Positions 6,647-21,155 of a stretch of DNA of 64,000 nt are shown in pieces (position 1 is the first letter of the stretch; the number at the start of each line of letters is the position of its first letter). Under the pieces are notes generated by a model. The model made no database searches, was not told where the DNA came from, and saw nothing but the letters and a program-made list of their open reading frames with translations. The position numbers were made by a program, and so were the translations under genes. The DNA is from Ralstonia soli (GTDB lineage: Bacteria; Pseudomonadota; Gammaproteobacteria; Burkholderiales; Burkholderiaceae), in contig NZ_JAMXHT010000010.1 in NCBI RefSeq assembly GCF_023955655.1, forward strand, positions 4,037 through 68,036, given 5' to 3'.

Positions 6647-7513
6647 ATGAACGCCCGTCTTCGGCTGGCCCGCGGCCTCGCCAGCTTCCTGCTTGCTGCG
6701 GCAGCCATTGCGATTGGCGCTGCGCCAGCGTACGCCGACTTGGCGAAGATCCGCCAGAGCGGCAGCCTGAAGGTTGCGCTGTACAAGGGCCTGCCGCCGT
6801 TTTCTGACAACGTGGGTGGCCAGTTCACTGGCATCGACGTTGCGCTGGCGAACGCGCTCAGCAAGCAGATGGGGCTGTCGGCTGCGCTGCTGCCGTTCGA
6901 TGCCGACGACGACGGCATGTCGGGCGACCTGCGCAACATGGTCTGGAAAGGCCATTACCTCGGATACGGCCCGGCCGACGTGATGCTGCATGTGCCGGTG
7001 GACCCCAACTTCGTCCGCCAGAACGGCCAGGTGCTGATTTTCGCGCCGTATCTTCGCGAGGGGTATGTGCTGGTCTACGACAGCGAACGTGTTCACAAGG
7101 TCAGCAGTTTCGAAGACCTTGCCGGCCAGGCAACCGGCGCTGAGCAGGGAACGGGCGGAGCAAGCGCGTTGCTCTCAAGCGCCAATGGTGCCTTGCGTGA
7201 CAAGGTGAAGATTTACCCCGAGGCCAGCGAGGCTTTGCGCGCGCTGTTCTCCGGGCAGATCGCCGCCGCGATGGTGACGCGTGCGCAGTATGAAAGTGCC
7301 CTGCAGGCGCAGAACCAGCACGCTACGCGCTTTGTGGCCACGGAGTTGCAGTCCCCGCTGGTGCCCGCGCATGGCTGGGCCGTCGGGATGGCGGTCAAGG
7401 CCGATCAGCGTGAGTTGGCGCAAGCGCTGGAGAACGCGCTCAACGCGCTGCGCGCCAGTGGCGAGCTGCAGCGGATCTTCGCGCAGTACGGCGTGTCGAT
7501 GATTGCGCCGTAA
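6647..7513 (+). CDS. Quinoprotein-associated periplasmic substrate-binding protein (family 3 type)
   Basis: The product (288 residues) has a signal peptide cut after APAYA and then an extracellular solute-binding fold of family 3. The N-terminal part reads DLAKIRQSGSLKVALYKG and continues with PPFSDNVGG, and the Gly-Asp ligand segment of amino-acid binders is altered. Proteins like this (MoxJ or PedG type) sit beside PQQ dehydrogenases and cytochromes rather than ABC permeases, and none is next to this gene. A role in dehydrogenase maturation or signalling is therefore likelier than transport. The start at 6647 follows the ribosome-binding site AGGAGAA; the frame is open from 6569. Confidence 0.78.
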   Translation: MNARLRLARGLASFLLAAAAIAIGAAPAYADLAKIRQSGSLKVALYKGLPPFSDNVGGQFTGIDVALANALSKQMGLSAALLPFDADDDGMSGDLRNMVWKGHYLGYGPADVMLHVPVDPNFVRQNGQVLIFAPYLREGYVLVYDSERVHKVSSFEDLAGQATGAEQGTGGASALLSSANGALRDKVKIYPEASEALRALFSGQIAAAMVTRAQYESALQAQNQHATRFVATELQSPLVPAHGWAVGMAVKADQRELAQALENALNALRASGELQRIFAQYGVSMIAP

Positions 7514-7587
7514 GCGCGCGGAGCCAATCGTGCTTGTGCAGCAACCGAGCTGGCTCTGCGGGGTCTCAGCCCCAGCCAGCTCGCGTG

Positions 7588-8055
7588 CTACAGCTTCTCT
7601 GCGGCCGCGTGTTTGGATGGCAGCGGACTCACGTTGTCGTCGAACTGCGGATCCACGGGAATCTTGGAGAAGTGGTGGATCTTCGGCCCATGCGACTCGT
7701 CGGCCTGGGCGTCGTGCGGCTCGATGAACGACATCGCCGTGCGGCGCTTGAGCATGTGCGAGTCGCGCGACTGCGATTCGCGCCATAGCTCGGCAGTGAA
7801 CTTCAGGCCGGCGCGCAGTGCGTGGGCGCTTTCCTGCTTGCCCTTGCGCTGATCGGAGACACGCTCGATGCCCTTCTTGACGACGTCTTCCAGGAACGTG
7901 ATGCGCGCGCGGTAATAGTCCGCGTGCATTTGCGCATCCATCACGCGTTGCTCCGCCTGGTACAGCTCCATGCGCAATTCGCTTAGCGCGCGTTCGGCCT
8001 GTTTCTCGGGAGAGGGTGCGTGGTTCACCGCCCAGTTTGCAATCCACCGCAACAT
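7588..8055 (-). CDS. Conserved hypothetical protein with coiled coil
   Basis: I do not recognise a family. The 155-residue product is charged and soluble. It has a predicted helical, coiled-coil-like stretch from about residue 17 to 75, rich in Glu, Arg and Ala, and a His/Asp/Pro-rich C-terminal tail. No signal peptide or membrane segment follows the short hydrophobic start MLRWIANWAV. The start at 8055 is supported by a strong ribosome-binding site (AGGAGGG) 6-8 bases upstream; an in-frame start also exists at 8103. No neighbour suggests a function. Confidence 0.7.
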   Translation of the reverse strand: MLRWIANWAVNHAPSPEKQAERALSELRMELYQAEQRVMDAQMHADYYRARITFLEDVVKKGIERVSDQRKGKQESAHALRAGLKFTAELWRESQSRDSHMLKRRTAMSFIEPHDAQADESHGPKIHHFSKIPVDPQFDDNVSPLPSKHAAAEKL

Positions 8056-8345
8056 GGTCAAGCCCTCCTGTCTTGCGGGTGCCGGCCGTTTGCGGGCAGA
8101 CACCGTTCACTGCTCGCGCGTGGATCGGAAGTGATCGTCGCTTGCCAAACAGACTAGCAAAAAAAGCGGGGCGATTGCGTTAATCCACGTGCATGCCTGT
8201 TGTGAAAACGAAGCATGCTCCGTTTGGGTGAGAGGCGCGCCCGCAAACTTCTGGTTTGATAGGTGGTTGCCGCGCGCGTATCCGTTTGCGCGGCCGTTGT
8301 CACCGTATCCATGCAAGCGATTGCGCACATCGGTGCGCCGCCGTG

Positions 8346-9146
8346 TCAGCGGAACCGATAGGTGAGCGACGCCATGGCGGTCGTTTGCTGGCGGCGTTGC
8401 GTGATCGGGCTGTCTGCTGCATCGCCGCGCAGCCGCGCCACGGTCACCGATCCATTGGCCGTCCACCGGTCGTCCAGCTTGCACGTGACGATGGCGTTGA
8501 GGTGGACATCGCGCAGGCCCGCATGCGTGGAGAACACCGGCAGGCCCGAGCGCGCGCTCTGCCCATCATCCACGCCAAAGAACGTGCGCATGTACTGGCC
8601 GTTCGTCCACGACACGCCTGTGCCGAGGCTGAACAGCCAGCGGCCTACCGGCGCACTGGCATACACATCCGCATTGGCGATCAGCCCCTGGCGATTGCCC
8701 AGAATGTCCTGCTCGGCATCCGTCGACAGCGTGAGAAATGACACCGTGTATTGCGCGAACGCCTTGGCGCGCACCGTGGCGTTGACAATTCCGAGACCAT
8801 TGAGCCGCGCGTCGTCGTGCGCATGCCGCCATGTCGGGTCGAACTGGAAGTTGCCGCCCACCTGCCAGGTATCGTCGTTGGCGAGGTAGATGCCGGCGAA
8901 ATCCATCCCCTTGGAAAAGAACCGGTGCTTGTATTCGATCTCCTGATCGATCCACGGAAACACGAAGCTCGACTTCGCGCCCGGATATTTCGGCGACACG
9001 TACACAGCAGGGCCGATGGCGATGCTCCAGTCGCTGGCGTCGGCGCTGGCGGGGGGCGCGGTCTGCGCCTGGGCGGTGCTCGATGCCCCGAGGGCCAGGA
9101 TAAGGACGAACGCGAAGCGCGACACGGCGCGCAAAGACAGCGGCAT
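8346..9146 (-). CDS. MipA/OmpV family outer-membrane protein
   Basis: This 266-residue protein has a signal peptide (cut near AQAQT, residue 27), then a series of amphipathic strands ending in aromatic Phe-Arg (LTYRFR), the usual C-terminus of outer-membrane beta-barrels. Segments such as AIGPAVYVSPKYPGAKS, QVGGNFQFDPTWRHA and GNRQGLIANADVY match the MipA/OmpV family, which includes MltA-interacting scaffold proteins and porin-like proteins. The Met at 9146 places the signal peptide at the N-terminus. Longer in-frame starts exist but have no better ribosome-binding site. Confidence 0.83.
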   Translation of the reverse strand: MPLSLRAVSRFAFVLILALGASSTAQAQTAPPASADASDWSIAIGPAVYVSPKYPGAKSSFVFPWIDQEIEYKHRFFSKGMDFAGIYLANDDTWQVGGNFQFDPTWRHAHDDARLNGLGIVNATVRAKAFAQYTVSFLTLSTDAEQDILGNRQGLIANADVYASAPVGRWLFSLGTGVSWTNGQYMRTFFGVDDGQSARSGLPVFSTHAGLRDVHLNAIVTCKLDDRWTANGSVTVARLRGDAADSPITQRRQQTTAMASLTYRFR

Positions 9147-9366
9147 GAGCAGTCCGAAATAGAGAGAGGCGGTCGACGGAAATGACGGGCACGCCATTCT
9201 AGTGGAACCGCCCGAACGGTTGATGCCCTGCAAACGTTGGCTGAACCGGACGGTGGTGTGCGCACGACCAGTGTCACGCGGCTGACATGTCCAGGTCGCC
9301 GCGCAGACATACACGGGCGATAGCGTGGCCGGGCCGCCTCATGGCGGTATCCCAGAGGAGAAACCC

Positions 9367-11103
9367 GTGTCCCCCAAGAAACACCTCGCTATCGCGGTGC
9401 TGTCCACGCTCGCATGTGGCTTGTCCATCCATGCGCACGCCGACGACGATGACGCACGCTACCCGCACGCCAAGCATGTCCTGCTGATCTCGGTTGACGG
9501 CCTGCATCAGGCTGATCTCGACTGGTATGTCGGCAGCTATCCGGGTTCCACACTGGCGCGTCTGGTGCGCCAGGGCACGTCGTATCGCGACGCGCGCACG
9601 CCGTTCCCGTCGGATTCGTTCCCGGGCATGGTCGGCCAGGTGACCGGCGGCAACCCGAAGACCACCGGCATCTACTACGACGACGCATACAGCCGCAGCC
9701 TGCTCCCCGCCGGCACCACGGCCGCCGATTGCAAAACCGGCCATATCGCCAAGCCGGGCGCAGAGGTGTTCTACGCGGAAGTCATCGCCCGCGATCCGAA
9801 CCGCCTCGACAGCGGCCAGGGCATCCCGGGCCTCTATGCCGATCTGTCGAAGATCTCGCAACTGACCGGCCGTGCGCAGGACCTGATTGATCCGGCGTTC
9901 CTGCCGGTGTCGCCGGTGACGTGCGCGCCGGTGTATCCGCACCAGTACCTAAAGGTCAACACGGTGTTCGAGGTGGCGCGCAAGCATGGGCTGCACACGG
10001 CGTGGTCGGACAAGCATGCCGCATATGAAATCCTCAACGGCCCGAGTGGCCAGGGCGTCGACGATCTGTTCGCGCCCGAGATCAACAGCTCGGTGACCGA
10101 CCCGTCGCTGCCGGCAGGCCCCGGCCCCGACTGGACCAAGGACAATACCAACACCCAGCGCTACGACAGCTTTAAGGTGCGGGCCGTGCTGAACTGGCTT
10201 GCTGGCCACGATCACGCCGGCAACGGCACGCCGGGCGTGCCTGCCATCCTGGGCATGAACTTCCAGGCTGTGTCGACCGCGCAGAAGCTGAACAAGTCGG
10301 CGTATTACCCCGACCCGTCGAACACCGCCAACAAGGTGATGGGCGGTCTGGGCGGCTACACCAACAACGGCACGGTGCCGGGCCCGGTGCTGCAGAGCGC
10401 GCTCACGTTCGTGGACAACAAGCTGGGCGAACTGGTCAAGGCGGCCGATCCGTCCAACACGGTGGTGATCGTGTCGGCCAAGCATGGCCAGTCGCCGACC
10501 AGCCGCGCCGATCTCACCATCGTCAACGACGGCGACATGATCGACGCGCTCAACTGCGCATGGGAAAAGTACGCTGCCACCTGCAAGGACGCGACCCTGC
10601 CGCACCTGGTTGCGCACGCGATGGACGACGACGGCATCCTGCTGTGGCTGAACGACCGTTCGCCCGCCGCGCTGCAGTTCACGAAGCAGTTCCTGCTCGG
10701 CTACTCGGGCACGGGCATCGGATCAGATGCAGCCGGCAATGCCATTGCCAAGCCGTTTGCGCAGGCAGGTGCCGCCCGCTTTGTGATGGGAGAGGAAGTG
10801 GCCGACTTCTTTGGCGTGAAGCCCAGCGATGACCGCGATCCGGATGTGCTCGGCATCGCGCAGCAGGGCACGGTATGGGCTGGCAGCAAGCTGTCGAAGA
10901 TCGCCGAGCACGGCGGCTTCCGTCCGGAAAACCGCCACGTGCCGATCGTGGTCTGGGGGGCGGGCGTCAACGCAGGCGTTGTGGATGAGCGTGTCGATAC
11001 CAACCAGATCGCCCCGACCATCCTGAGCGAACTGGGCCTCAAGCCGCACGAGCTGCAAGCCGTGCAGATCGAAGGTACGAAGCGTCTGCCGCATCTGCAT
11101 TGA
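9367..11103 (+). CDS. Secreted alkaline-phosphatase-superfamily phosphodiesterase/nucleotide pyrophosphatase
   Basis: The 578-residue protein has a signal peptide (cut after HAHA, about residue 24) and an alkaline-phosphatase-superfamily core. Visible motifs are the first metal segment LLISVDGLHQADLDW, a candidate nucleophile in TPFPSDSFPGM (Ser or Thr), and later metal-ligand segments VSAKHGQSP and AEHGGF. This fits the nucleotide pyrophosphatase/phosphodiesterase branch, whose members hydrolyse phosphodiesters or pyrophosphates outside the cytoplasm. The GTG start is set by AGAGGAG at 9355. The gene ends at a strong terminator. The substrate is unknown. Confidence 0.82.
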   Translation: MSPKKHLAIAVLSTLACGLSIHAHADDDDARYPHAKHVLLISVDGLHQADLDWYVGSYPGSTLARLVRQGTSYRDARTPFPSDSFPGMVGQVTGGNPKTTGIYYDDAYSRSLLPAGTTAADCKTGHIAKPGAEVFYAEVIARDPNRLDSGQGIPGLYADLSKISQLTGRAQDLIDPAFLPVSPVTCAPVYPHQYLKVNTVFEVARKHGLHTAWSDKHAAYEILNGPSGQGVDDLFAPEINSSVTDPSLPAGPGPDWTKDNTNTQRYDSFKVRAVLNWLAGHDHAGNGTPGVPAILGMNFQAVSTAQKLNKSAYYPDPSNTANKVMGGLGGYTNNGTVPGPVLQSALTFVDNKLGELVKAADPSNTVVIVSAKHGQSPTSRADLTIVNDGDMIDALNCAWEKYAATCKDATLPHLVAHAMDDDGILLWLNDRSPAALQFTKQFLLGYSGTGIGSDAAGNAIAKPFAQAGAARFVMGEEVADFFGVKPSDDRDPDVLGIAQQGTVWAGSKLSKIAEHGGFRPENRHVPIVVWGAGVNAGVVDERVDTNQIAPTILSELGLKPHELQAVQIEGTKRLPHLH

Positions 11104-11121
11104 TGCGGAACAGGCGGGCAT

Positions 11122-11155
11122 AAAAAAAACGCCGGGAATTTCCCGGCGTTCTTTA
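11122..11155. terminator. Bidirectional terminator
   Basis: A perfect stem (AACGCCGGGAA with TTCCCGGCGTT) has A residues before it and CTTTATT after it. It can therefore end the phosphodiesterase transcript from the left and the small Ala-rich gene's transcript from the right. Confidence 0.85.
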
Positions 11156-11168
11156 TTGCGCGATCGCC

Positions 11169-11447
11169 TTATTGCTTGGCGGGTTCAGCAGCCTTCGGCG
11201 CCGAAGCGGCGTCGGTCTTGGCTTCCGACTTGGCTGCAGCCTTGTGGGCCTTCTTGTGCGCGTGGTGCTTCTTCTCGTGCTTGGCTTCAGCCTTCGGGGC
11301 GGAAGCGGCATCGGTGGTCGCCGTCGTCGTGGCAGCAGCGGCCGGAGCCGGAGCGGCAGCCGGTGCGGAGGCGGCGCCAGCGGCGAACACGGGGGCTGCG
11401 AAGGCACCAGCAACGATCAGAGCGGCCAGGGATTGAGCGACTTTCAT
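11169..11447 (-). CDS. Small periplasmic Ala/Lys/His-rich protein, acid-shock (Asr)-like
   Basis: The 92-residue product has a clear signal peptide (cut after PVFA, about residue 22). The mature chain is almost entirely Ala, Pro, Thr and Ser followed by Lys/His/Glu stretches such as EKKHHAHKKAHK. The composition and layout resemble enterobacterial Asr acid-shock proteins, though low-complexity sequence makes homology hard to prove. The start follows TAAGGAG. It is transcribed divergently from a shorter protein of the same design, with repeats of a GTAAG motif between them. A role in acid or metal stress is an inference. Confidence 0.72.
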   Translation of the reverse strand: MKVAQSLAALIVAGAFAAPVFAAGAASAPAAAPAPAAAATTTATTDAASAPKAEAKHEKKHHAHKKAHKAAAKSEAKTDAASAPKAAEPAKQ

Positions 11448-11852
11448 GTGAGACTCCTTAAGCGGAAACAAGCGGGATATTGGCGGGACTCCAGATACAT
11501 GGATCTCGTCCCATTTGCGATCCATGCCTCCAAAAACGCCCCACATCGTGAGCCGGTGGACCGCCGTTTGTAAGCGATCTGCTGACGATGTAAGCGCGCG
11601 TAACACGGTAGGCGGCAGGTCACCCGACGTCTGTTGCGTTTGGTTGAGACACATCAAGACGGCGGCCGGCGCCTGCGCGTACTGTTGAGCTTCGGGTGGA
11701 CAAGCGCAGATGCGCACACCACGCTACGTGCAGATGCGTGCTCAAAGGCAGTCCCTGGCGCATTGCACAGTACGGGCGCGGGGGCGAACTGGATCACGCC
11801 TCACCCGATGGCAGAACGCGCCGCAACCTGGTCTCTTCCTAAGGACAACACG
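11448..11852. other. Intergenic region between two divergent Asr-like genes
   Basis: I can support no gene here. The stretch holds both divergent promoters and a phased set of GTAA(G/C) repeats near 11569-11604, described separately. Confidence 0.6.
11569..11604. promoter_or_regulatory. Phased direct repeats, possible response-regulator site
   Basis: The octamer TGTAAGCG occurs at 11569-11576 and again at 11589-11596, exactly 20 bases apart. A third related half-site, GTAAC, begins at 11600, ten bases further on. Direct repeats phased to the helical turn are typical binding sites of OmpR/PhoB-type response regulators. The site sits between the two acid-shock-like genes and could control both. 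Confidence 0.4.
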
Positions 11853-12065
11853 ATGAACAAGCTCCTGGCTGCCCTCGTGGCTGCACTCTTCAGCGCTGGC
11901 GCATTCGCGCAGGCTTCCGCTCCGGCGGCACCAGCCGCCGCACCGGCACCTGCCGCCTCGGAACCGGCGGCGGGCGAGAAGAAGGCACAGCATCACAAGA
12001 AGAAAAAGAAGCGCGACCACCGTCCAAGGATGCAGGACAAGAGCGCATACGGCGTGGGTGGCTAA
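11853..12065 (+). CDS. Small periplasmic Ala/Pro/Lys-rich protein, paralogue of the divergent Asr-like gene
   Basis: The 70-residue product has a signal peptide (cut after GAFA, about residue 19), then an Ala/Pro stretch and a strongly basic Lys/His run (HHKKKKKRDHRPR). It mirrors the larger divergent protein at 11169-11447 and probably arose by duplication. AAGGAC precedes the ATG, and a strong terminator follows, so it is a single-gene unit. The basic tail might bind acidic polymers, metal or protons; nothing in the sequence decides this. Confidence 0.68.
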   Translation: MNKLLAALVAALFSAGAFAQASAPAAPAAAPAPAASEPAAGEKKAQHHKKKKKRDHRPRMQDKSAYGVGG

Positions 12066-12103
12066 TCCACCCAAGGCACCCCGTCGATTTCTGCACACCA
12101 AGG

Positions 12104-12133
12104 CGCCGGCCCCTTACAAGGGGGCCGGCGTTT
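12104..12133 (+). terminator. Intrinsic terminator
   Basis: A 10-bp GC-rich stem (CGCCGGCCCC and its complement at 12121-12130) with a six-base loop is followed by TTT. It ends the small basic protein gene. Confidence 0.75.
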
Positions 12134-12171
12134 CGCTTTGTGCGGGCGAAAAAGAATCGCGTTAAAGTCGC

Positions 12172-12202
12172 TTGACTTAGAGTGCGCTCTAACTTCTAAG
12201 CT
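12172..12202 (+). promoter_or_regulatory. MerR-type promoter/operator
   Basis: A -35 box TTGACT (12172-12177) and a -10 box TAAGCT (12197-12202) are separated by 19 bases, the long spacer used by MerR-family promoters. Between them lies the inverted repeat TTAGAG-TGCG-CTCTAA, the usual operator position. It closely resembles operators of AdhR/NmlR-type regulators, which respond to aldehydes and electrophiles. It lies directly before the MerR gene, suggesting autoregulation. Confidence 0.75.
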
Positions 12203-12208
12203 CCGTTC

Positions 12209-12769
12209 ATGACCACCTTCCTGACCATCGCCCAAGTTGCAGCGGCCACCGGCCTGTCGACGCACACGCTGCGCTATTACGAGCGCATCGGCCTGCTCGA
12301 CAGCGTGCAGCGGCGCGACAACGGCCACCGTGTCTTCCGTGCCGAAGACATGACGTGGCTCGCCTTTCTGCTGCGCCTGCGTGAGACCGGCATGCCGATC
12401 GCGCAGATGCAGCAGTACGCCACGCTGCGGCGCCAGGGCGACAGTCTGGAGAGTGTGTCGGCACGCCAACGCCTGCTGGAAGAGCATGCGGCGGCGCTGG
12501 AAGCGGAGCTGCGCACGCGGGCCGAAACGCTGGCTGTGCTGCGCGCGAAGCTCGTCGTCTACGACGGCATCCGGGCCAGGATTGCCGCCGCAGAAAACGC
12601 ACAGGGCTCCGCTTCCTCATCTCCTAAATCGAAACACCCGCCGAAACGCCAACCGAACGAGGAAGCCCATGACACTGATCGCACAAGCCGCACCGCAAGC
12701 CGCAAACCACGCCAACCCGCAGGACGACCGCTACGCCCGGGGCTGGCAAAGGCTGAAGGAGGTCGATGA
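12209..12769 (+). CDS. MerR-family transcriptional regulator (AdhR/NmlR-like)
   Basis: The N-terminal winged helix (TIAQVAAATGLSTHTLRYYE, then RIGLL) and the following HRVFRAEDMTWLAFLLRLRETGM are characteristic of the AdhR/NmlR branch. A coiled-coil dimerisation helix spans about residues 85-130. The protein has no cysteine at all, so it cannot use the reactive-Cys mechanism described for some relatives. The final 50 or so residues are low-complexity and run 101 bases into the next gene. Homologues usually end near 130-150 residues, so this tail may have little function. It is co-transcribed with a CMD-family gene, as adhR is with yraC in Bacillus. Confidence 0.85.
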   Translation: MTTFLTIAQVAAATGLSTHTLRYYERIGLLDSVQRRDNGHRVFRAEDMTWLAFLLRLRETGMPIAQMQQYATLRRQGDSLESVSARQRLLEEHAAALEAELRTRAETLAVLRAKLVVYDGIRARIAAAENAQGSASSSPKSKHPPKRQPNEEAHDTDRTSRTASRKPRQPAGRPLRPGLAKAEGGR

Positions 12770-13142
12770 TGTGGCCGGCGAGCGTGTGGTCGAGGCCTTG
12801 GCCGACATCTCGCCCGACCTCGGCCGCTACATCGTCGAATTCGGCTTTGGTGACGTCTACAGCCGCCCGGGCCTGACGCTGCGCGAGCGCGAGGTCGCCT
12901 CCATTGCTGCGCTCACCGCACTCGGCAACGCGGCGCCGCAGTTGAAGGTGCACATTGCGGCAGGACTCAACGTGGGGCTCACGCGCAAGGAGATCACCGA
13001 GACGATCCTGCAGATGGCGCTATACGCGGGTTTTCCGGCGGCGCTCAACGGCATGTTTGCCGCCAAGGAAGTCTTCGCCGCTCACGACACCGAGGGCAGC
13101 GCGCCGGCCGGCGGATCGATGCGCCGCGAAACCAGCAACTGA
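12669..13142 (+). CDS. Carboxymuconolactone decarboxylase (CMD/AhpD-like) family protein
   Basis: The 157-residue protein carries one CMD domain: RYIVEFGFGDVYSRPGLTLR followed by EREVASIAALTALG, KVHIAAGLNVGLTRKEI and ETILQMALYAGFPAALN. It lacks a CxxC, so it is not an AhpD-type peroxidase. It is a paralogue of the authentic PcaC encoded at 33483, but sits with an aldehyde-type MerR regulator, so its role is more likely in electrophile or quinone stress than in aromatic degradation. The ATG follows GAGGAAG. The 3' end overlaps the convergent CorC gene by 61 bases. Confidence 0.82.
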   Translation: MTLIAQAAPQAANHANPQDDRYARGWQRLKEVDDVAGERVVEALADISPDLGRYIVEFGFGDVYSRPGLTLREREVASIAALTALGNAAPQLKVHIAAGLNVGLTRKEITETILQMALYAGFPAALNGMFAAKEVFAAHDTEGSAPAGGSMRRETSN

Positions 13143-14398
13143 TCAATGCGGTGGTTGTCGATATCGAGCACTTCAATACGCAGCGGCCCGATGTCGACGC
13201 TCTCGCTTTTCTTGGGAATGCGCTTGAGCGCGTAGATGACCAGCCCGGCAATCGTTTCGACGTGATGCTCGCCGGGCAGGTCGTCGAGGTCGAAGGCGCG
13301 CTTGACGTCGCCCAGCGGCGTGACGCCGTCGATCAGGCATGAGCCGTCATCGCGGCGCACGATCTGTTCGTCTTCGCCCAGATACAGGATGTCTCCCATC
13401 ACCGCGCCGACGATGTCGTCGAGCGTGACCACCCCCACCACCAGCCCATACTCGTTGACCACCGCGCCAAAGCGCTCGTGCATCTCGCGAAAGCGCGTAA
13501 GCGCCTGCGACAGGTTGAGCGTGTCGGGCAGCACCAGCAGGTTCTTGTCGTAGTGCTTGCTGATGTTGCGGATCACGGAAGACGATTCTTCTGACAGGAT
13601 CTGCTGCAGGATGTCCTTGGACGCAATGAAGCCGAGCACCGAATCGATGTCTTCGCGGCAGACGAGGTATTCGGCATGCGGCTGCGCGATGATCTTCATC
13701 TTGATCGCCTCCACCGGCTCGTCCACCGTGAAGTAGATCACCTCGTCGCGCACGGTCATCACCGAGGTGATGGTGCGCGATTCCAGCTCGAACACGTTCT
13801 CGATCATGGTCAGCTCGTGCTTGCGCAGCACGCCGGCTTCCGCACCTGCGCCCACCATGGCGGTGATGTCTTCGGTGGTGATCTGCTCCACGCGGTGCGT
13901 GGGCACGCCGAACAGCTTCAGGAACATGTCGGCTGCGCCATTGAATAGCCATACCACCGGACGCAGCACGCGCAGGCATGCCTGCATCGGGCTGATGATC
14001 GACATCGCGCAGCGCTCGGGGTAGAGCACGGCCAGGCGCTTGGGCAACAGATCGGCAAACAGGATGAACAGCCCTGTCACGATGACGAAACCGGCAATGC
14101 TGGCGATGCGCTCGGCGCGCGCGGCCGGGAGCCAATCGCCCAGCACGGCGGCCAGCGGCCCCGAGATATGGCTATCGCCGATGACACCCGCGAGGATGGC
14201 CACCGCATTCACCCCGATCTGCACCACGGTGAAGAAGTTGCCCGGCATGTCCTTGAGCTGCAGCACACGCAGCGCACGGGCATCACCGTCGTCTGCCAGG
14301 GTTTGCAGGCGCGTGCGCCGCGACGCTGTGAGGGCGATTTCGGACGCGGAAAAAAAGGCGCTGATCAGGATCAGCAGGACAAGGGTGAGGGCAGACAT
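13082..14398 (-). CDS. HlyC/CorC (CNNM) family membrane protein
   Basis: The 438-residue protein has an N-terminal DUF21 membrane domain (about four hydrophobic segments within residues 1-180, starting LTLVLLILISAFFSASEIAL), a pair of CBS domains (about 200-330) and a C-terminal CorC/HlyC domain (about 345-430, GDGSCLIDG-type fold, here RRDDGSCLIDGVTPLGD). Family members export or sense magnesium or cobalt and bind ATP-Mg through the CBS pair. I chose the Met at 14398 because it begins at the first membrane segment; an in-frame Met also lies at 14431. Confidence 0.88.
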   Translation of the reverse strand: MSALTLVLLILISAFFSASEIALTASRRTRLQTLADDGDARALRVLQLKDMPGNFFTVVQIGVNAVAILAGVIGDSHISGPLAAVLGDWLPAARAERIASIAGFVIVTGLFILFADLLPKRLAVLYPERCAMSIISPMQACLRVLRPVVWLFNGAADMFLKLFGVPTHRVEQITTEDITAMVGAGAEAGVLRKHELTMIENVFELESRTITSVMTVRDEVIYFTVDEPVEAIKMKIIAQPHAEYLVCREDIDSVLGFIASKDILQQILSEESSSVIRNISKHYDKNLLVLPDTLNLSQALTRFREMHERFGAVVNEYGLVVGVVTLDDIVGAVMGDILYLGEDEQIVRRDDGSCLIDGVTPLGDVKRAFDLDDLPGEHHVETIAGLVIYALKRIPKKSESVDIGPLRIEVLDIDNHRIDQLLVSRRIDPPAGALPSVS

Positions 14399-15049
14399 GA
14401 TGTCGGTTCGGCCGTCGCTGTTGCGCTGCACACGGGGATTGCTGCAGTCGTCATGCCGCGCGGCCGCTTGAAATGTGGCTTCGGACGATCATGGTGCAGT
14501 GCGAATCGCTTTGTCAAACCAGAACGTGAGGCGTGTACCGCAAACAATTGCCTATGTCCAGCGGCGGTGCTCGGACATCTGAAAAGTGGTTTGCCGCATA
14601 CCCGCAGCATGGGCGATACTTGCTCCCGTCGGACCATACTGTCCCATCAGCGTTGCGGGGCCTGCGTTTACAGGCGGCAATCGAGAAAGAAGACAGATGT
14701 CCGGCACGGCGCAAGCACAGGCGCCGCGCAAAGTCAGGTGCCGGCGTGGACCGGCCAGAGGGCAGCTTTGACGTAGAGGAGCGGGTCACGTGGATTCTCT
14801 TAGCGCGAGAAAACACACCGGTATGGCCATGGCGATCACGCGGCAGGCGGGATTGCAGATGGGGCGCTCGCCTCAATGTCATGCGTGGCACCTATCCAAC
14901 AGGTTCCCGTGCGTCGGGGGCCATATCTTCTGCGCCCGATTGCTCGGCGGCCCGCGCATATCGCGCCTTCGTAACGGGCCATCGGCCCGGATGCCGCGCC
15001 CGCTACCGGCCCCGTGGCAGCGTTCTGAACCGCATAACCATTCCATCCC
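14399..15049. other. 650-bp region upstream of the exopolysaccharide operon
   Basis: No recognisable gene lies here. The frames that are open have no known homologues and weaker third-position bias than the neighbours. The best candidate is the short reading frame at 14790-15053, listed separately. The operon promoter should be in this stretch, but I found no convincing sigma-70 or sigma-54 site. Confidence 0.5.
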
Positions 15050-15053
15050 ATGA
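14790..15053 (+). CDS. Possible small leader gene (87 aa), doubtful
   Basis: A GTG start at 14790 follows GAGGAG eight bases upstream, and the frame ends in TGA at 15051-15053, overlapping the ATG of the next gene as ATGA. The next gene has no ribosome-binding site of its own, so coupling to this frame is plausible. Against it, the 87-residue product shows no known domain, and only about two thirds of its codons end in G or C, lower than in the neighbours. It could be a chance open frame. Confidence 0.25.
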   Translation: MDSLSARKHTGMAMAITRQAGLQMGRSPQCHAWHLSNRFPCVGGHIFCARLLGGPRISRLRNGPSARMPRPLPAPWQRSEPHNHSIP

Positions 15054-16441
15054 CTTCCACGTCGCCTCGCATTGCCTCGATAGGGCCCGCCCAGCACGCG
15101 TTCGCTCACCAGAACGTCGAGGGTTGTGAATCCGTCACGAGCTTGCTTGCCGGCCCGCGGTACGACGTGGTGTTACTCAATTTGCCGGCGCCTCTGGCCG
15201 CGCAGGCATTGCGCGAATTGCGCCAGCATGCGCTCTACCGGTTCAACCTCATCTATTGCGCGCAGGCCGAAGACCCGCTGTGCGAAGCGCTCAGCGATGG
15301 TCCTGTACCGGTTGACCCCCAACAGCTGCTCGCGGAATTCCAGAACTGGAAGGAGCGGTATTCGCAGCTTGATGAACGTGTCCTGCAGGAGCGAGCTGAA
15401 GCGCGCCTGCTCGCGTGGCTGTGGCTGCGGCTGCCGCGACAGGTGCGGGCGGTGCGCAACCCGCAGGCGGCCGGGTACTACGAGTACCCGCTGCTCGCTG
15501 CGCTGACGGGTGAGGATCGGCGCGGCAGCCAGATGGTCTTGCTGCAGCTGGCGACCCAGCAGGGGTACCTGGCCGAAGGGGCGTTGATTGACCGCCTGCG
15601 CCTGTGTTCCAACTGCGGATCGGGGCGGCTCAACTACATCGACGTCTGCCCCGAGTGCCAGTCGATCGGCATCGCCCGGGAACCATCCCTGCATTGCTTC
15701 GTGTGCGGCCACGTCGGGCCGCAGGAGCGCTTTCTCAAAGACGGCGCGTTGCTCTGCCCGAACTGCATGACCCGCCTGAGGCACATCGGCAGCGACTATG
15801 ACCGGCCGATGGAAAACTACCGCTGCCGCGACTGCCGGGCGTTTTTCGTGGATGCGAAAGTTCAGGCCCGCTGTCTTGATTGCGGTGAAGCCCATGCGCC
15901 GGACGAACTGCGTGTGTTCGAGGTGCGCAACTACACGCTCACCGATTCAGGGCGACTGCATTGCCGGCAAGGTTTCGGGGCCGTGGCCAGCGAGCAGCTC
16001 AACGCGCTGGGCTTGATCAGCGTCGGCACGTTCCGTTATCTGCTGGACTGGCTGCTGCAATTGCAGGTGCGTCACGACGAGCCGTTGTTCTCGCTGCTCG
16101 GATTGCGGTTCGTCAATTTTGCCAAGGCGCTCGAAAGCCTCGGCGAGCAGCAGGCGACCTTGCTGGTCGATAGCCTTGTCGACCGCCTGCTCGAAGGCAT
16201 GCGCACGACCGATCGTTGCACGCGCACCAACGAAGAATGCCTGTGGCTGCTGCTGCCCTATACGGGTGAAGAGGGCCTGAATACCGTCAAGGGACGCATC
16301 TCAAAACTGGAGGAACTCTTCGCCGCATCGGGTGCGCACGAGATCGTGCTGCGGATGGCGGGCGTCACGGCGCCGGGCGGACTGCTCGAGGGCGAGAGCG
16401 CCGAACTGCTGATGGCGCGCCTGACTGGCGAACTGGACTAG
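15050..16441 (+). CDS. Zinc-ribbon protein with degenerate GGDEF domain (TackOD1-like), putative c-di-GMP receptor
   Basis: The 463-residue protein has three parts. Residues about 30-75 look like a worn receiver-type domain (YDVVLLNLPAP, FNLIYCAQ). Residues 186-278 hold six CxxC pairs (C186/189, C200/203, C216/219, C236/239, C259/262, C275/278), enough for three zinc ribbons; this resembles the TackOD1 output domain. Residues about 325-440 align with a GGDEF fold, but catalytic positions are lost: GGEEF is replaced by NEECL at 394-398 and the metal/substrate aspartates are absent. An RxxD I-site (R385-D388) sits exactly five residues before it, as in PelD. I infer that it binds cyclic-di-GMP without making it. 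It is the first gene of the polysaccharide operon, 3 bases before the synthase gene. Confidence 0.75.
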   Translation: MTSTSPRIASIGPAQHAFAHQNVEGCESVTSLLAGPRYDVVLLNLPAPLAAQALRELRQHALYRFNLIYCAQAEDPLCEALSDGPVPVDPQQLLAEFQNWKERYSQLDERVLQERAEARLLAWLWLRLPRQVRAVRNPQAAGYYEYPLLAALTGEDRRGSQMVLLQLATQQGYLAEGALIDRLRLCSNCGSGRLNYIDVCPECQSIGIAREPSLHCFVCGHVGPQERFLKDGALLCPNCMTRLRHIGSDYDRPMENYRCRDCRAFFVDAKVQARCLDCGEAHAPDELRVFEVRNYTLTDSGRLHCRQGFGAVASEQLNALGLISVGTFRYLLDWLLQLQVRHDEPLFSLLGLRFVNFAKALESLGEQQATLLVDSLVDRLLEGMRTTDRCTRTNEECLWLLLPYTGEEGLNTVKGRISKLEELFAASGAHEIVLRMAGVTAPGGLLEGESAELLMARLTGELD

Positions 16442-16444
16442 CCC

Positions 16445-17776
16445 ATGGACGCGGTACTGGAAGTGTGGCAGTCGTTCTTTCGCGAGCTCTCGGGGCCCAA
16501 CGGCTTGACGCGGCTGTTCCTCATGCTGTTCCCGTATTTCCTTCTGTTCGAGCTGCCTTTCAACGTGATGGTGTTTCTGGGGGCGCTGCGCTGGTTTGTC
16601 CGCAAGCGCAGCATGGTGCAGCTCAACAACACGCATTACCAGCCGCGGGTGTCGTGCATCATCACCTGCTACAGCGAGGGGCTGGACGTGCAGAAGACCA
16701 TTCTGAGCCTGTGCGAACAGACCTACCCCGGCCACATCGAGATCATTCCGGTGGTGGATGGCGCGGCAGTCAACCAGGTGACGATGGATGCGGTGCGCGA
16801 CTTCCATCTGGATCCGCACATTTACCCGCGCCGGCACCTGCGGCCCATCGCCAAGTGGCAGCGCGGTGGCCGGGTGTCGTCGCTCAACGCTGGTCTTGCC
16901 CAGTCCAGCGGCGAGATCGTCATGGCGCTCGATGGCGATACCTCATTCGACAACAACATGGTCAGTGCCATGGTGCGGCACTTTGCCGACCCCGACGTGC
17001 CTGCGGTGGCCGGGAGTCTGCGCGTGCGCAACGCCTGGGCATCGGTGACAGCGGCAGTGCAGGCGCTGGAATACCTGATCTCCATCCACTTCGCAAAGAT
17101 CGGGCTGGCCGAGTGGAACGTGGTCAACAACGTTTCGGGCGCATTTGGCGCATTCCGCCGGAGCTTTCTGGAAGTGGTCGGCGGCTGGGATACCCACACT
17201 GCCGAAGACCTGGATCTCACGTTGCGCATCAAGAGCTACGCACGTCGGCGCAACCTGCGCATCCCGTTCGAGCCCGAGGCCATCGGGCACACGGATGTGC
17301 CGGCCACCTTGCGGCAGTTTCTGATGCAGCGGCTGCGCTGGGATGGCGACCTGTTCTTTCTCTACATCCGCAAGCACAAGCACAGCATCACGCCGGGCTT
17401 GCTCGGCTGGCCCAATTTTCTTGCGGCGTTGGTCAGCGGCCTGTTCTTTCAACTCGTGCTGCCGTTCATCATCCTCACGTACACCATCATGGCAGTGGCC
17501 CTGCTGCCGTGGACGACGTTGATCTTGATCTTCATGTTGACCTACGGCCTGTACCTGCTGATTACCGTGGCCATGTTCCTGGGGATGCTGGTGATGACAT
17601 CGGAGCGCCCGAGGCAGGACATCAAGCTCGCGATCCTGCTGCCGCTGTTTCCGCTGTTCATGATGATGGTGCGGCTGTGGAGCGTCGTGGCCATCCTGAA
17701 CGAGGCGCTGCGCCGGGGGCACGAAGAGTCGAGCATGGCCCCCTGGTGGGTGTTGAAAAAAGCGACGCGATTCTGA
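16445..17776 (+). CDS. Processive family-2 glycosyltransferase (polysaccharide synthase)
   Basis: The 443-residue inner-membrane protein has an N-terminal membrane segment (FLMLFPYFLLFELPFNVMVF), a cytoplasmic GT-A domain and about four C-terminal membrane helices. Catalytic motifs of processive beta-glycosyltransferases are intact: VVDG near residue 103, the DxD-type ALDGDTSF near residue 162, the TAED base near residue 255 and QRLRW near residue 298. It is closest in design to PgaC and BcsA, but lacks a PilZ domain. It lies between a putative c-di-GMP receptor and export genes. The sugar it polymerises cannot be told from the sequence. Confidence 0.88.
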   Translation: MDAVLEVWQSFFRELSGPNGLTRLFLMLFPYFLLFELPFNVMVFLGALRWFVRKRSMVQLNNTHYQPRVSCIITCYSEGLDVQKTILSLCEQTYPGHIEIIPVVDGAAVNQVTMDAVRDFHLDPHIYPRRHLRPIAKWQRGGRVSSLNAGLAQSSGEIVMALDGDTSFDNNMVSAMVRHFADPDVPAVAGSLRVRNAWASVTAAVQALEYLISIHFAKIGLAEWNVVNNVSGAFGAFRRSFLEVVGGWDTHTAEDLDLTLRIKSYARRRNLRIPFEPEAIGHTDVPATLRQFLMQRLRWDGDLFFLYIRKHKHSITPGLLGWPNFLAALVSGLFFQLVLPFIILTYTIMAVALLPWTTLILIFMLTYGLYLLITVAMFLGMLVMTSERPRQDIKLAILLPLFPLFMMMVRLWSVVAILNEALRRGHEESSMAPWWVLKKATRF

Positions 17777-17786
17777 TTGCGCAGCC

Positions 17787-19979
17787 ATGGATGACTTGAA
17801 CACAATCAGCACGGATTCGCGCCAACGTATGCCACGTACCGTCTACCTTGCCGTGATTGCCTTATGTGCGACTGCAGCCCACGCAGCACCGCTGCCCTTG
17901 GCAGACGTCTTGAGCGGTGTCGACAATGACCCCGCGGTCCGTGCCGAATACGCTGACCTCGACGCCGCGCTCGGCGATCGCAAGCAGCGGGAGAGCGAGG
18001 CCGGGTGGCGCGTGGTGTCTTCGGCCGGCATCGGCAAATATCGCGAACTGGTGACAGACCAGATCATCACCGACTACTACGGCCGCAACATGGCGGTAGG
18101 CGTGGCCTATCCGCTGTTCGGCAGCCTCAAGCGGCAACTGGATGCGTTGCGCGGAAGCGAGTTTGCCGTGCAGCGCCAGCAGATCCGGATCACCCTGCGC
18201 CGGGCAGAGCGCCGTTTGGTTTTGCGCACCACCTATGCCGATTGGTGGCGCGCCCAGCAGGAGGGGCTGTTGTGCGGGCCCTTGCGCACCGATGCCTCCC
18301 AGGCGATGGATCAACTGGGCCGTCGCGAGCGCGCCGGTTGGCTGCGTGGGTCGGAGGCCAGCGAGCTGCGCGGGCAATGGCAGGCGCTGCTGAAATCTTG
18401 CCGCGTACAGGCGCAGATCGAGGCGGAAACGCGCGCCACGATTGAACGGCTCACCCAGAAGACGGTGCCCGATGGCACCACCGCAGTCGGTGAGCCGCTC
18501 GCCGCAAAGCCTGAGGCGCTTGCTGCGTGGCAGGGCCTGCTGGATCGCCAGCCCCGCGTGGTCGACCAGGAAACCCGTCTGCGTGAGGCGGACGGCAACC
18601 GGCAGCAACACTGGTACGACAGCATTGAGTCCAGCGCGAGCGTTGGATACAACCTGAACAACCGCGCCGGCGTCGCCAGCACGGGCAATTCTGTGGTGGC
18701 CAGCATCAATTTCTCCATGCCGTTCGACGTGGCCGGTGCAACTGCTGGCCGGCGTGACGCAGGAGATGCGCGCTACATCGCGGCCAAAGCGAGGCTGGAT
18801 GCGGAGCGCCAGGAGGTTGCCACCGAGCTCGGACGCGCATTGCGCACGCATCGGGACGCGGCGCTTGAATTGCAGTTGCGTGAAGACCAGCTTGCCGCGG
18901 CCCAACTGCAACTGCATGAACAGCGCAAGCGCACGAGCCTGGACGGCGACCAGGCCATCGTGCGGGTGCAGGCGGCGCAGCGGCAGTACTACCAGGCGGC
19001 CTTTGCACGCGTTGCGGCATGGCACCAGCTGTGGGTGCAGGAATCCGCGCTGCGTACCTTCGTCGATGTCGACCAGGACCCGAGCGCCGATAGCGTGCTC
19101 GGTGAGCCGCGCTTGCGTTGGCAGGGGGATGGCCTCAACGCAGCCGCCGCCACGGAGTCTGCCGGGGCGGGGCAGGTGTCGGCGTCAGCGTCTGGCACGG
19201 ACAAAACTTGGCGACAGGGCGTTTACTTGTGGGACAGCCAGGCCCTGCTCGACCCGGCGCGCATGGCAGATGAACTCCGCACGCTGCGTCAGGCACGGAT
19301 CGACCAGCTCTACGTTGGTTTGAATCGGGCGCAGGTGACTCGGATGGCGGACACGCGCGAGGGGCTGCGCACGCTTATGGACGCCGCCGGCAAGCAGGGC
19401 ATGCGCGTCAGCTTGCTGCTCGGTGACCCCGCCTGGTTGCACCCAGGCGAGCGAAAGAGCCTGCTCGGCCTGATCGGGCAACTGAAAGATCTTCCCTTTG
19501 CGAGCCTGCATCTGGACCTCGAAGTCGAGCAACTCGGCTGGCCTGTGCCCGACGGGCGCCTGCACGATTGGCTCGATACCCTGGCCGCGGCGGCCCGGAC
19601 GAGCCCATGGCCGGTCGAGATCTCCAGCCACCCGCGGTGGTTCGGTGCGCAGGAGGCGGGGCGTCCATGCGTGCCGTGCCGGCTGCCGGACATCGGCGTC
19701 ACGCATGTCAGCCTGATGATCTATACCCGCAATCCGCAAAAGAGCGCGGTGCTGGCGGACGACATTGCGCGGCGCTGGCCCAAGCTGGTCTTCCGGCTGG
19801 CGCAAAGCGTGGAAACGAAGTTGCCCGCCGACGAGACCTGGGCTGGCGCATCGCCGCGGCAACTGGAAGAACAGGTGGAGGGCTGGCGCACCAGGCTGGC
19901 ACCTCAGGGTGTGACTGGAGTTGACTGGCAGGATTGGCATGACTATTCCCGCCTCTTTCGTGGCGGACGATCGCAATGA
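17787..19979 (+). CDS. TolC-like outer-membrane channel fused to a C-terminal barrel-like (glycosidase-like) domain
   Basis: The 730-residue protein starts with a signal peptide (from Met15, cut after TAAHA). Residues about 35-435 form a TolC-type outer-membrane efflux protein with long Gln/Glu/Arg-rich helices, two similar repeats and strands such as SVGYNLNN and VVASINFSMPF. Residues about 465-725 form a separate domain beginning QGVYLWDSQALL. It has alternating strand and helix units (IDQLYVGL, RVSLLLGD, FASLHLDLEVEQLGW, HVSLMIYTRN), a pattern like a TIM-barrel glycosidase or sugar-binding domain. Such a fusion is unusual for TolC proteins. The start could be 17787 or the Met at 17829. It overlaps the adaptor gene as ATGA. 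Confidence 0.75.
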   Translation: MDDLNTISTDSRQRMPRTVYLAVIALCATAAHAAPLPLADVLSGVDNDPAVRAEYADLDAALGDRKQRESEAGWRVVSSAGIGKYRELVTDQIITDYYGRNMAVGVAYPLFGSLKRQLDALRGSEFAVQRQQIRITLRRAERRLVLRTTYADWWRAQQEGLLCGPLRTDASQAMDQLGRRERAGWLRGSEASELRGQWQALLKSCRVQAQIEAETRATIERLTQKTVPDGTTAVGEPLAAKPEALAAWQGLLDRQPRVVDQETRLREADGNRQQHWYDSIESSASVGYNLNNRAGVASTGNSVVASINFSMPFDVAGATAGRRDAGDARYIAAKARLDAERQEVATELGRALRTHRDAALELQLREDQLAAAQLQLHEQRKRTSLDGDQAIVRVQAAQRQYYQAAFARVAAWHQLWVQESALRTFVDVDQDPSADSVLGEPRLRWQGDGLNAAAATESAGAGQVSASASGTDKTWRQGVYLWDSQALLDPARMADELRTLRQARIDQLYVGLNRAQVTRMADTREGLRTLMDAAGKQGMRVSLLLGDPAWLHPGERKSLLGLIGQLKDLPFASLHLDLEVEQLGWPVPDGRLHDWLDTLAAAARTSPWPVEISSHPRWFGAQEAGRPCVPCRLPDIGVTHVSLMIYTRNPQKSAVLADDIARRWPKLVFRLAQSVETKLPADETWAGASPRQLEEQVEGWRTRLAPQGVTGVDWQDWHDYSRLFRGGRSQ

Positions 19980-21013
19980 AAATTCGCTTTGATAGCAGCA
20001 AAGAACGCAGCCCCACGCAGGAGCAGGGCCTGAAGGTGCTCTATGCGCCCGGCAAGCGCATGGCTTTTCGCCTGCGGTGGTATTTAATCCTGCTCCTGGT
20101 TGCCAGCCCGCTGATCTGGTTCTTTGCCAAGCTGGCGGTGGGCGCATGGATGATCGAGGCGCCGGCGCAACTGGTCTTGCCGCAGATCGACATCCGCTCT
20201 CGCGAGCCGGCCTTGGTCAGCCGCGTGAACGTGCGTGCCGGCGACAAGGTCGAAGCCGGCCAGGTCCTGCTGGACATGGACAACCCCGAGTGGAAGCAAC
20301 GGCTGCGGCAATTGCAGGCGTTGTCCAACGACGCGCAGGCTGCGCCCGTGCCGGCGGCTTCAACGCTGCGGGATGTTCTGCGCCGGCAACTGGATCGGTC
20401 ATCGGAAAAGTTGGCCCTGACCCGGCGGCTGGTGCGCGAGGGCGCAGCAACGCAGGGCGAAGTGCTGGCAGCCGAGGCCGAGCGCGACCAACGGCAGGCC
20501 GAGCTCTTGTCTTATGAGCAACGCCAGGAGCAGGCACGCACATCGCCCGCGCTTGCCCGGGACGTCGCCATGCAGGGTGCAGAAGAACAGTGGCTGACCG
20601 GCCGGCTGCAGGCCCTGCAGTTGAAGGCGCCCGAACCCGGCGTGGTGTCGGAGGTGCTCGTCCACGAGGGCGAGAACGTCGGTGCAGGGACGCTGCTGGT
20701 GCGCGTCGCGCGCATGGCCGATGCGGTCATCTGGGTGTATCTCGATCCGGCGCACGCGGCGTACGGCAAGCCAGGGCAGCCATTGAGGCTGAAGTTGCCC
20801 GACGGCCATTGGCTTGACGCGAAAGTGCTGCAGAGCGCAGACCGCGCCAACCGCTTGCCGGAGGACTTGCGCTCCCCGTTTGGCGCGCCGCAGCGATGGC
20901 TGATGGTGCAGGTGGCCGTCGATGGCGCCATTCCGCAGCGTTGGCTTATCGATCAGTTGCCGCTGACGGCGCGTTTCCCGCATCGGCTGTCGTCGCTGTT
21001 CTCTTCCGATTGA
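19976..21013 (+). CDS. HlyD-type periplasmic adaptor protein
   Basis: The 345-residue protein has one membrane anchor (YLILLLVASPLIWFFAKLAV, about residues 34-55), a split lipoyl-like domain (SRVNVRAGDKVEAGQVLLDM and GVVSEVLVHEGENVGAGTLL) around a helical hairpin of about 110 residues, then a beta-barrel domain. These adaptors bridge an inner-membrane transporter and a TolC channel. Here no ABC, RND or MFS pump is present, so the partner is presumably the polysaccharide synthase. It starts within the stop of the TolC-like gene and is the last gene of the operon. Confidence 0.85.
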   Translation: MKIRFDSSKERSPTQEQGLKVLYAPGKRMAFRLRWYLILLLVASPLIWFFAKLAVGAWMIEAPAQLVLPQIDIRSREPALVSRVNVRAGDKVEAGQVLLDMDNPEWKQRLRQLQALSNDAQAAPVPAASTLRDVLRRQLDRSSEKLALTRRLVREGAATQGEVLAAEAERDQRQAELLSYEQRQEQARTSPALARDVAMQGAEEQWLTGRLQALQLKAPEPGVVSEVLVHEGENVGAGTLLVRVARMADAVIWVYLDPAHAAYGKPGQPLRLKLPDGHWLDAKVLQSADRANRLPEDLRSPFGAPQRWLMVQVAVDGAIPQRWLIDQLPLTARFPHRLSSLFSSD

Positions 21014-21155
21014 AGGGACACTGCTGCGCGGGCGAACGGCGGGGTGCCGTTCACCCTATAGCTCCACAACATTCCCGCCAACAACTGCGCATTTGCGCAA
21101 CTGCGCTCCACCTCCTTAAGCTGCCGACAACATTCCACCAAGTGGCAGCTTGTTC

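Follow-up and report, generated by a model that had tools for sequence, protein, structure and literature searches.

A run of four genes in Ralstonia soli raises the question of whether a glycosyltransferase, an HlyD-type adaptor and a TolC-like channel encoded side by side form a system for polysaccharide synthesis and export, and how such a system would relate to those already known. The genes lie in a stretch of 64,000 nucleotides from contig NZ_JAMXHT010000010.1 (positions 4,037 to 68,036), here called the window, in whose numbering all coordinates are given. In the open reading frame (ORF) listing all four are on the + strand, at 15050-16441, 16445-17776, 17787-19979 and 19976-21013, and consecutive frames are spaced by a 3-base gap, a 10-base gap and then a 4-base overlap; the initial annotation had these coordinates and spacings right. 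Gene 1 encodes a receiver-like N-terminus, a TackOD1 zinc domain and a degenerate GGDEF domain, and is the predicted cyclic di-GMP (c-di-GMP) receptor of the synthase. Gene 2 encodes a processive synthase of glycosyltransferase family 2 (GT2), gene 3 a TolC-type outer-membrane channel (OEP in Pfam) fused to a TIM-barrel domain, and gene 4 an HlyD-type periplasmic adaptor. Two parts of the initial annotation are thereby sharpened: its zinc ribbon is a named domain, TackOD1, and its barrel-like domain is a predicted TIM barrel rather than an outer-membrane barrel. The four genes probably constitute a compact c-di-GMP-gated system for synthase-dependent exopolysaccharide production, acquired by horizontal transfer and standing in place of pel.

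Co-occurrence of the genes outside this strain was set beforehand as a test, and it was found in the phylum, class and best-relative samples, which excludes a strain-specific arrangement. In an even draw of 299 genomes from the phylum, 11 genomes, among them that of the window, held 12 places with TackOD1 over its cut-off, and one further genome held a match below the cut-off. GT2, searched in 299 genomes drawn likewise, gave 16 places at E<=1e-30. The 12 strongest of these (E<=8e-36) adjoin the 12 TackOD1 places, and the remaining 4 (6e-34 and weaker) come from genomes that have no TackOD1 match. HlyD is adjacent in the 11 other phylum-sample loci, the match being only partial (6e-4) in L021, which sits at the edge of its contig. 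A TIM barrel was recognised in L019 (E 5e-13) and, only once L019 had joined the profile, in L022 (1.1e-06) and L023 (5.9e-04); it was not found by profile in L016, L018, L020, L024 and L025, nor in L021, cut by its contig end. TackOD1 and GT2 predict each other in 299 genomes, and the view that the four genes form one unit, in which the GT2, the HlyD adaptor and the TolC-like protein belong together, is supported.

The linkage was also followed in 80 loci, the best of 429 relatives by similarity to the window, on which the component profiles were trained; these are mostly Pseudomonas, and the phylum and class samples are the fairer ones. Two groups were left out of the counts: 6 of the 80 loci that are truncated where their contig stops (L028, L041, L076, L079, L095, L101), and TackOD1 matches below the cut-off, for example L002/L027 (G014, same genus, 21.1 bits) and L013/L026 (G148), at which neither a TackOD1 gene nor a GT2 gene turned up. 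TackOD1, GT2 and HlyD are together in 74 of the 74 untruncated loci, the TIM barrel is present in 73 and the OEP part as well in 46; BLAST with the window proteins agrees with these profile counts, except for OEP in L098 and L100. The plain gene order is kept in 42 of the 46 OEP loci, two have the OEP part in split frames, and two, from Synergistales bins, are ordered OEP-barrel, HlyD, TackOD1, GT2. Neither OEP nor TIM barrel is present in the Shewanella locus L099. In the class sample TackOD1 was over cut-off in 19 of 369 genomes, and 18 such loci were examined, the window and G083 being excluded; GT2 and HlyD accompany it in 14 of the 18 (in split frames in L165) and the TIM barrel in 8. Carriers of the set include Pseudomonas, Stutzerimonas, Burkholderia, Vreelandella and Marinobacter and, as metagenome bins only, Nitrosomonas, Synechococcus, Synergistales and Desulfuromonadaceae; loci from such bins (e.g. 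Synechococcus, Nitrosomonas, Synergistales) are possibly misassigned. A Cupriavidus locus (L028) is visible only as far as the GT2. The recurrence of the set across many genomes, from several phyla, is more than chance would give.

TackOD1 (PF18551) occupies residues 112-297 of gene 1 (15383..15940) and scores 218.9 bits in Pfam against a cut-off of 32. Cysteines 189, 200, 203, 219, 236, 239, 259, 262, 275 and 278 and H215 are invariant in 12 aligned rows, and C186 is almost so. The paper defining TackOD1 gives eleven zinc-type cysteines and describes the function of the domain as obscure (PMC5847659). The GGDEF domain (about residues 314-463, 15989..16438) scores 20.7 bits, under its 23.8 cut-off. 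The cyclase motif GG[DE]EF is kept in 0 of 87 distinct TackOD1 proteins, while the RxxD motif of the inhibitory site, RTTD in the window (residues 385-388, 16202..16213), is conserved, with R in 85 and D in 87 of the same 87 rows. A degenerate GGDEF domain with a kept RxxD is the combination found in PelD-type receptors, a likeness at the level of function, not of family. Since PelD-type receptors work in this way, with RxxD kept and GG[DE]EF lost, gene 1 is predicted from its sequence to be a c-di-GMP receptor of the synthase, binding at RxxD. PelD, BcsE and PssE are all described as degenerate GGDEF receptors (PMC4125290 and PMC8461298), and the claim of the initial annotation that the sensor is of an unfamiliar kind is not supported, as they share the same logic.

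Alternatively, gene 1 could be an active diguanylate cyclase that merely raises c-di-GMP near the synthase. In favour of this, a GGDEF fold is predicted for gene 1, and the public annotation of two plasmids, NZ_AP024139.1 and NZ_CP062197.1, names the TackOD1 protein “diguanylate cyclase”. Against this stand the absence of the canonical motif from every distinct row, the retention of RxxD and the sub-cut-off Pfam score, so that a cyclase is very unlikely and the plasmid label is probably wrong. TackOD1-GGDEF genes also exist with neither GT2 nor HlyD nearby (L154 and L168), and by eye that of L154 adjoins PhoB/PhoR/Pst-like genes.

Gene 2 (16445..17776) matches GT2 families in Pfam, and residues D105, D163, D165, E254, D255, D257, Q295, R298 and W299 are each present in 76 of 76 rows; the full processive motif set, QxxRW included, is therefore intact in every row. 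It resembles PgaC, NodC and chitin synthase in Pfam and NCBIfam. Its nearest NCBIfam model is PgaC/IcaA, at 147.3 bits, and it reaches only 18.2 bits with CelA (cut-off 699.1). A GalE-like gene lies 3' of HlyD in 19 Pseudomonas loci, the one tested scoring 196.7 bits against a cut-off of 262.3. The product would be a beta-linked polymer made from a UDP-sugar, and the sugar is probably an amino-sugar; this guess is based on the resemblance to PgaC, NodC and chitin synthase, the high place of N-acetylglucosamine (GlcNAc)-type enzymes in the fold-match list of gene 3 and the GalE-like gene.

The kinship of gene 2 with PgaC, together with the presence of a glycoside hydrolase (GH)-type TIM barrel among the structural fold matches of the gene 3 barrel, recalls the PgaABCD system for poly-N-acetylglucosamine (PNAG), and the operon might be a divergent Pga system with a different exit. 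This is improbable: the score of gene 2 is far below the 422.3-bit PgaC cut-off, a separate PgaC scores over that cut-off (599.7 bits) elsewhere in the same genome, and neither a tetratricopeptide-repeat (TPR) porin nor the deacetylase domain expected of PgaB was detected by Pfam in the four proteins. Cellulose synthesis of the Bcs type differs too, gene 2 being under the CelA cut-off and PilZ being absent from the synthase and from all Pfam matches of the four proteins.

Gene 3 (17787..19979) scores 39.3 bits with OEP (cut-off 22) in Pfam. Its translation may start at an ATG at 17829, 14 codons downstream of the listed start, where by eye a more typical signal peptide would begin. The C-terminal domain (residues 474-730, 19206..19976) is predicted as an eight-stranded TIM barrel with a pLDDT of 95.2 and a pTM of 0.92. 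Glutamates after strand 4 (codon 19521-19523) and strand 7 (codon 19812-19814) are invariant in 43 of 43 rows of the barrel alignment (A3), which drew on 42 of the 74 TIM-barrel stretches; a further alignment (A4) drew on 35 of the 80 loci. This placing of the two glutamates is the clan-A-like arrangement of glycoside hydrolases, and the HLDLE after strand 4 may correspond to the DGxDxDxE-like motif of GH18, a likening based on a single alignment reading that claims no membership of that family. GlcNAc-type enzymes stand near the top of the Foldseek list. From the model, the barrel would be a glycosidase-like hydrolase. Both ends of TolC are periplasmic, and a C-terminal fusion would therefore put the barrel in the periplasm.

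Sequence searches gave the barrel no family. No convincing Pfam family was found in the 43 rows, the commonest weak match being MEDS (8 rows, best E 0.0041), and one row matched a xylose-isomerase-like TIM barrel (E 0.0076); a sequence search of the PDB gave at best a keratin (E 0.099). The hydrolase of PelA was tried as a source of the barrel and rejected, its GH114-type domain giving an hhalign probability of 0.5% in what is a weak test, with 3 rows on the PelA side; PelA is also absent from the rows shown of the fold-match lists, which does not exclude it. In 27 loci (e.g. L034, L039, L054, L088, L091, L096; many from the Pseudomonas fluorescens group or Synechococcus bins) gene 3 is the TIM barrel only, and by eye this barrel seems to have a signal peptide or lipobox of its own. 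Pseudomonas umsongensis (L053) has this barrel-only form and P. oligotrophica (L031) the form with the channel. The close relative L063 retains the channel, so that the OEP part was lost or gained among the barrel-only kin.

Gene 4 (19976..21013) scores 45.9 bits with HlyD_3 (cut-off 22.2) and has, by eye, one N-terminal membrane helix. The tail preceding this helix, KIRFDSxKExxPTQEQGLxVLYAPGKR (19976-20080), looks conserved by eye, in part even in the Shewanella and Synechococcus-bin loci; it is possible that it is a docking tail.

The position of the operon in the genome bears on its role, a point missing from the initial annotation. Of the 16 genomes of the genus, one, that of the window, has TackOD1 over cut-off; none of the 15 relatives does, G014 having the weak 21.1-bit match. 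The left flanking DNA of the operon is matched in 16 of the 16 and the right flank in 15. Ten of the 15 relatives have the two flanks on a single contig at a spacing of 13.5-27.5 kb, and all ten have PelG in the interval. In 4 further relatives PelG is at most about 14 kb from one flank, and the second flank is on a separate contig or, in G006, far off; in G007 no link between flank and PelG is visible. PelG is present in 15 of 15 relatives and absent from the genome of the window (G000), where PelF over cut-off is absent as well (best 51 bits vs 100). The DNA between the flanks was compared in five of the relatives. By hidden Markov model (HMM), L149 contains PelA with its GH114 domain, PelB, PelF (863 bits) and PelG, and L150 contains PelD; PelE was placed by position, with a weak TPR match only, and the other three have the same kind of ORFs by eye and PelG by HMM. 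The window DNA aligns with the five loci up to 14756-14800 and resumes at 21055-21058, leaving 14757..21054 (from 14801 for L146) without a blastn match at E<=1e-5. Since the same flanks enclose pel in relatives and PelG is absent here, the operon apparently replaced pel in place at its chromosomal site, and an in-place swap of one c-di-GMP-gated matrix operon for another is the simplest account of these alignments. In one relative (L148, G008, 7281-13885) pelB seems by eye to be split by an IS66-like element, and pel looks broken there.

The four-gene set is also found on plasmids. The Aeromonas caviae plasmid pKAM329_3, of 29,020 bases and typed as mobilizable, carries it under the annotations “diguanylate cyclase”, “glycosyltransferase”, “TolC family” and “HlyD family”; the 20 kb displayed has 14 other annotated features, of which none is a polysaccharide gene and none a pump. 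A shorter version, of three genes and with no channel, is on a Plesiomonas plasmid. A search of 72,556 plasmid records found the GT2 in 6 at E<=1e-50, all of them within the 19 with a TackOD1 match. Horizontal transfer of the operon, as part of the reading given at the outset, is likewise probable.

Several observations weigh against that reading. HlyD and OEP proteins are usually pump components. The OEP part is absent in 27 of the 74 untruncated loci, where the TIM barrel alone is kept, and by profiles neither OEP nor TIM barrel was found in 10 loci of distant lineages (L016, L018, L020, L099, L153, L156, L157, L161, L164, L166); a dedicated channel is thus not essential to the core. In 4 of the 18 class-sample loci, TackOD1 is without GT2 and HlyD: L154, L168, L169 (with the match close to the edge of a 5-kb contig) and L170 (a fragmentary match). 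The acceptor position of the receiver-like domain is D in 68 of 87 rows, variable in the others and N in the window (residue 44, 15179-15181). The Foldseek list for the TIM barrel also has isocitrate lyases, phosphoenolpyruvate mutases and sugar epimerases, and the VIA-align rows are tied and include the non-enzymes beta-Klotho and a xylanase inhibitor; the predicted fold alone fixes no glycosidase family.

Two further explanations draw on these observations. The HlyD and OEP proteins could be parts of a common efflux or type I pump, adjacent to the glycosyltransferase by chance, as their generic Pfam matches and the many loci without OEP would allow. This is highly improbable, because Pfam finds in the four proteins no pump domain and no ATP-binding cassette (ABC) transporter such as type I secretion has beside HlyD and TolC, HlyD accompanies TackOD1 and GT2 in all untruncated loci and in 14 of the 18 class-sample loci, and the plasmid-borne set has no annotated pump in the 20 kb displayed. 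Alternatively, the GT2 may make a short or cell-bound glycan that modifies the envelope instead of a secreted polymer, with the TIM barrel as a binding or scaffold domain. The minimal TackOD1-GT2-HlyD forms and the non-enzymes among the fold matches speak for this; the complete processive motifs, the invariant glutamates after strands 4 and 7 and the occupation of the pel locus speak against it, and it is unlikely.

For the exopolysaccharide system that we prefer, the gene set, its linkage and motifs, the predicted folds for two of the proteins, the presence of pel at this site in relatives and plasmid carriage are read from sequence or model, and from them we infer c-di-GMP binding, activation of the GT2, a polymer, an export route and hydrolysis. 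C-di-GMP would bind the RxxD of the degenerate GGDEF domain, and the TackOD1 protein with its bound ligand would switch on the GT2 at the inner membrane. The GT2 would draw on a UDP-sugar to build a beta-linked chain, probably of an amino-sugar, and move this chain through the membrane; the HlyD adaptor, docked on the GT2, would convey it across the periplasm to a TolC-type trimer, and the TIM barrel, periplasmic by fusion, would trim or clear it.

No name for the four-gene set was found by text search of the open literature, most subscription papers being outside its reach, and a term search of the available text of a review of Pseudomonas exopolysaccharides (PMC7926942) found no mention of HlyD or GGDEF. 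The initial annotation proposed a distinct secretion class; its gene linkage stands, but this proposal, like the unfamiliar sensor, is not supported in the form given. A route from synthase through HlyD to TolC has already been proposed for cyanobacterial cellulose (XcsAB-TolC; Maeda et al. 2018 as cited), without experimental confirmation according to a review (PMC12430437), and Alg44 of the alginate system joins a c-di-GMP sensor to a membrane-fusion domain (PMC8461298). The best reading of the operon is a c-di-GMP-gated synthase-dependent system with a TolC/HlyD exit, for which XcsAB-TolC and Alg44 are partial precedents. The GT2 synthase, the HlyD-like adaptor and TolC as a proposed single conduit are common to XcsAB-TolC, as described in the review, and the operon, and this component set is in one gene block in 46 of the 74 untruncated loci; in XcsAB-TolC, however, the synthase carries PilZ or PCR and the genes are not in one operon, whereas here sensor and channel are co-encoded, the channel having a TIM barrel as its fusion partner. 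Alg8/Alg44 similarly combines a GT2, a c-di-GMP-binding partner and a membrane-fusion domain (PMC8461298), but with PilZ sensor and fusion domain in one protein, against two proteins here, and with a different exit.

Pel itself is alike in being a c-di-GMP-gated exopolysaccharide operon with a degenerate GGDEF and RxxD, in having a glycosidase domain in its modification and export part, and in its identical chromosomal site within the genus. It differs in its synthase (GT4 PelF, against GT2 here, with no PelG in this genome), in its TPR porin, which none of the four proteins has, in its receptor (GAF there, TackOD1 here) and, by the weak profile comparison above, in its hydrolase. In Listeria PssA-E, a degenerate GGDEF receptor (PssE) serves the glycosyltransferase PssC and a putative glycosidase is present, but the system is Gram-positive with no outer-membrane route, and TackOD1 is not mentioned in the available text (PMC4125290).

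Whether the set amounts to an unnamed, widespread, plasmid-borne class, in which TackOD1 couples a c-di-GMP receptor to a GT2, a dedicated HlyD/TolC conduit with a channel-fused glycosidase crosses the envelope, and the cassette is interchangeable with pel, we judge to be about evenly balanced. Synthase-dependent biofilm polysaccharides are usually treated as a few systems: cellulose, alginate, Pel and PNAG. Such a class would add one more, common in Pseudomonas, found also in Burkholderia and Marinobacter, and small enough for a 29-kb plasmid. The exchange with pel suggests that, at a given site, c-di-GMP-gated matrix cassettes can substitute for one another, and the proposed but unproven export from synthase to TolC via HlyD would become an operon open to gene-by-gene deletion. 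The operon further offers a testable role for TackOD1 and, if the reading is true, a function for a domain called obscure in its defining paper (PMC5847659).

Three other clusters were considered and set aside, as was BgsA/BgsB as a GT2/adaptor pair, BgsB not being mentioned in the paper searched for it (PMC5567048). The zetaproteobacterial sfz/sfb stalk clusters also place a GT2 within a c-di-GMP-linked glycan cluster, but Sfz1 is BcsB-like and Sfz2 a fusion of an EpsE-like domain and a GT2, and the four proteins have no such domains (PMC8250860). The Pap cluster of P. fluorescens F113 has 16 genes, with the phosphotransferase PapC and the polymerase PapH (PMC7716237), and the “type I polysaccharide secretion” of an Antarctic Pseudomonas plasmid has an ATPase and a permease (PMC6896180); both are therefore different. 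In one phylum-sample genome (L025, G317) a second GT2, which is cellulose-synthase-like and carries PilZ, adjoins a TackOD1/GT2/HlyD locus, at 11158-13134.

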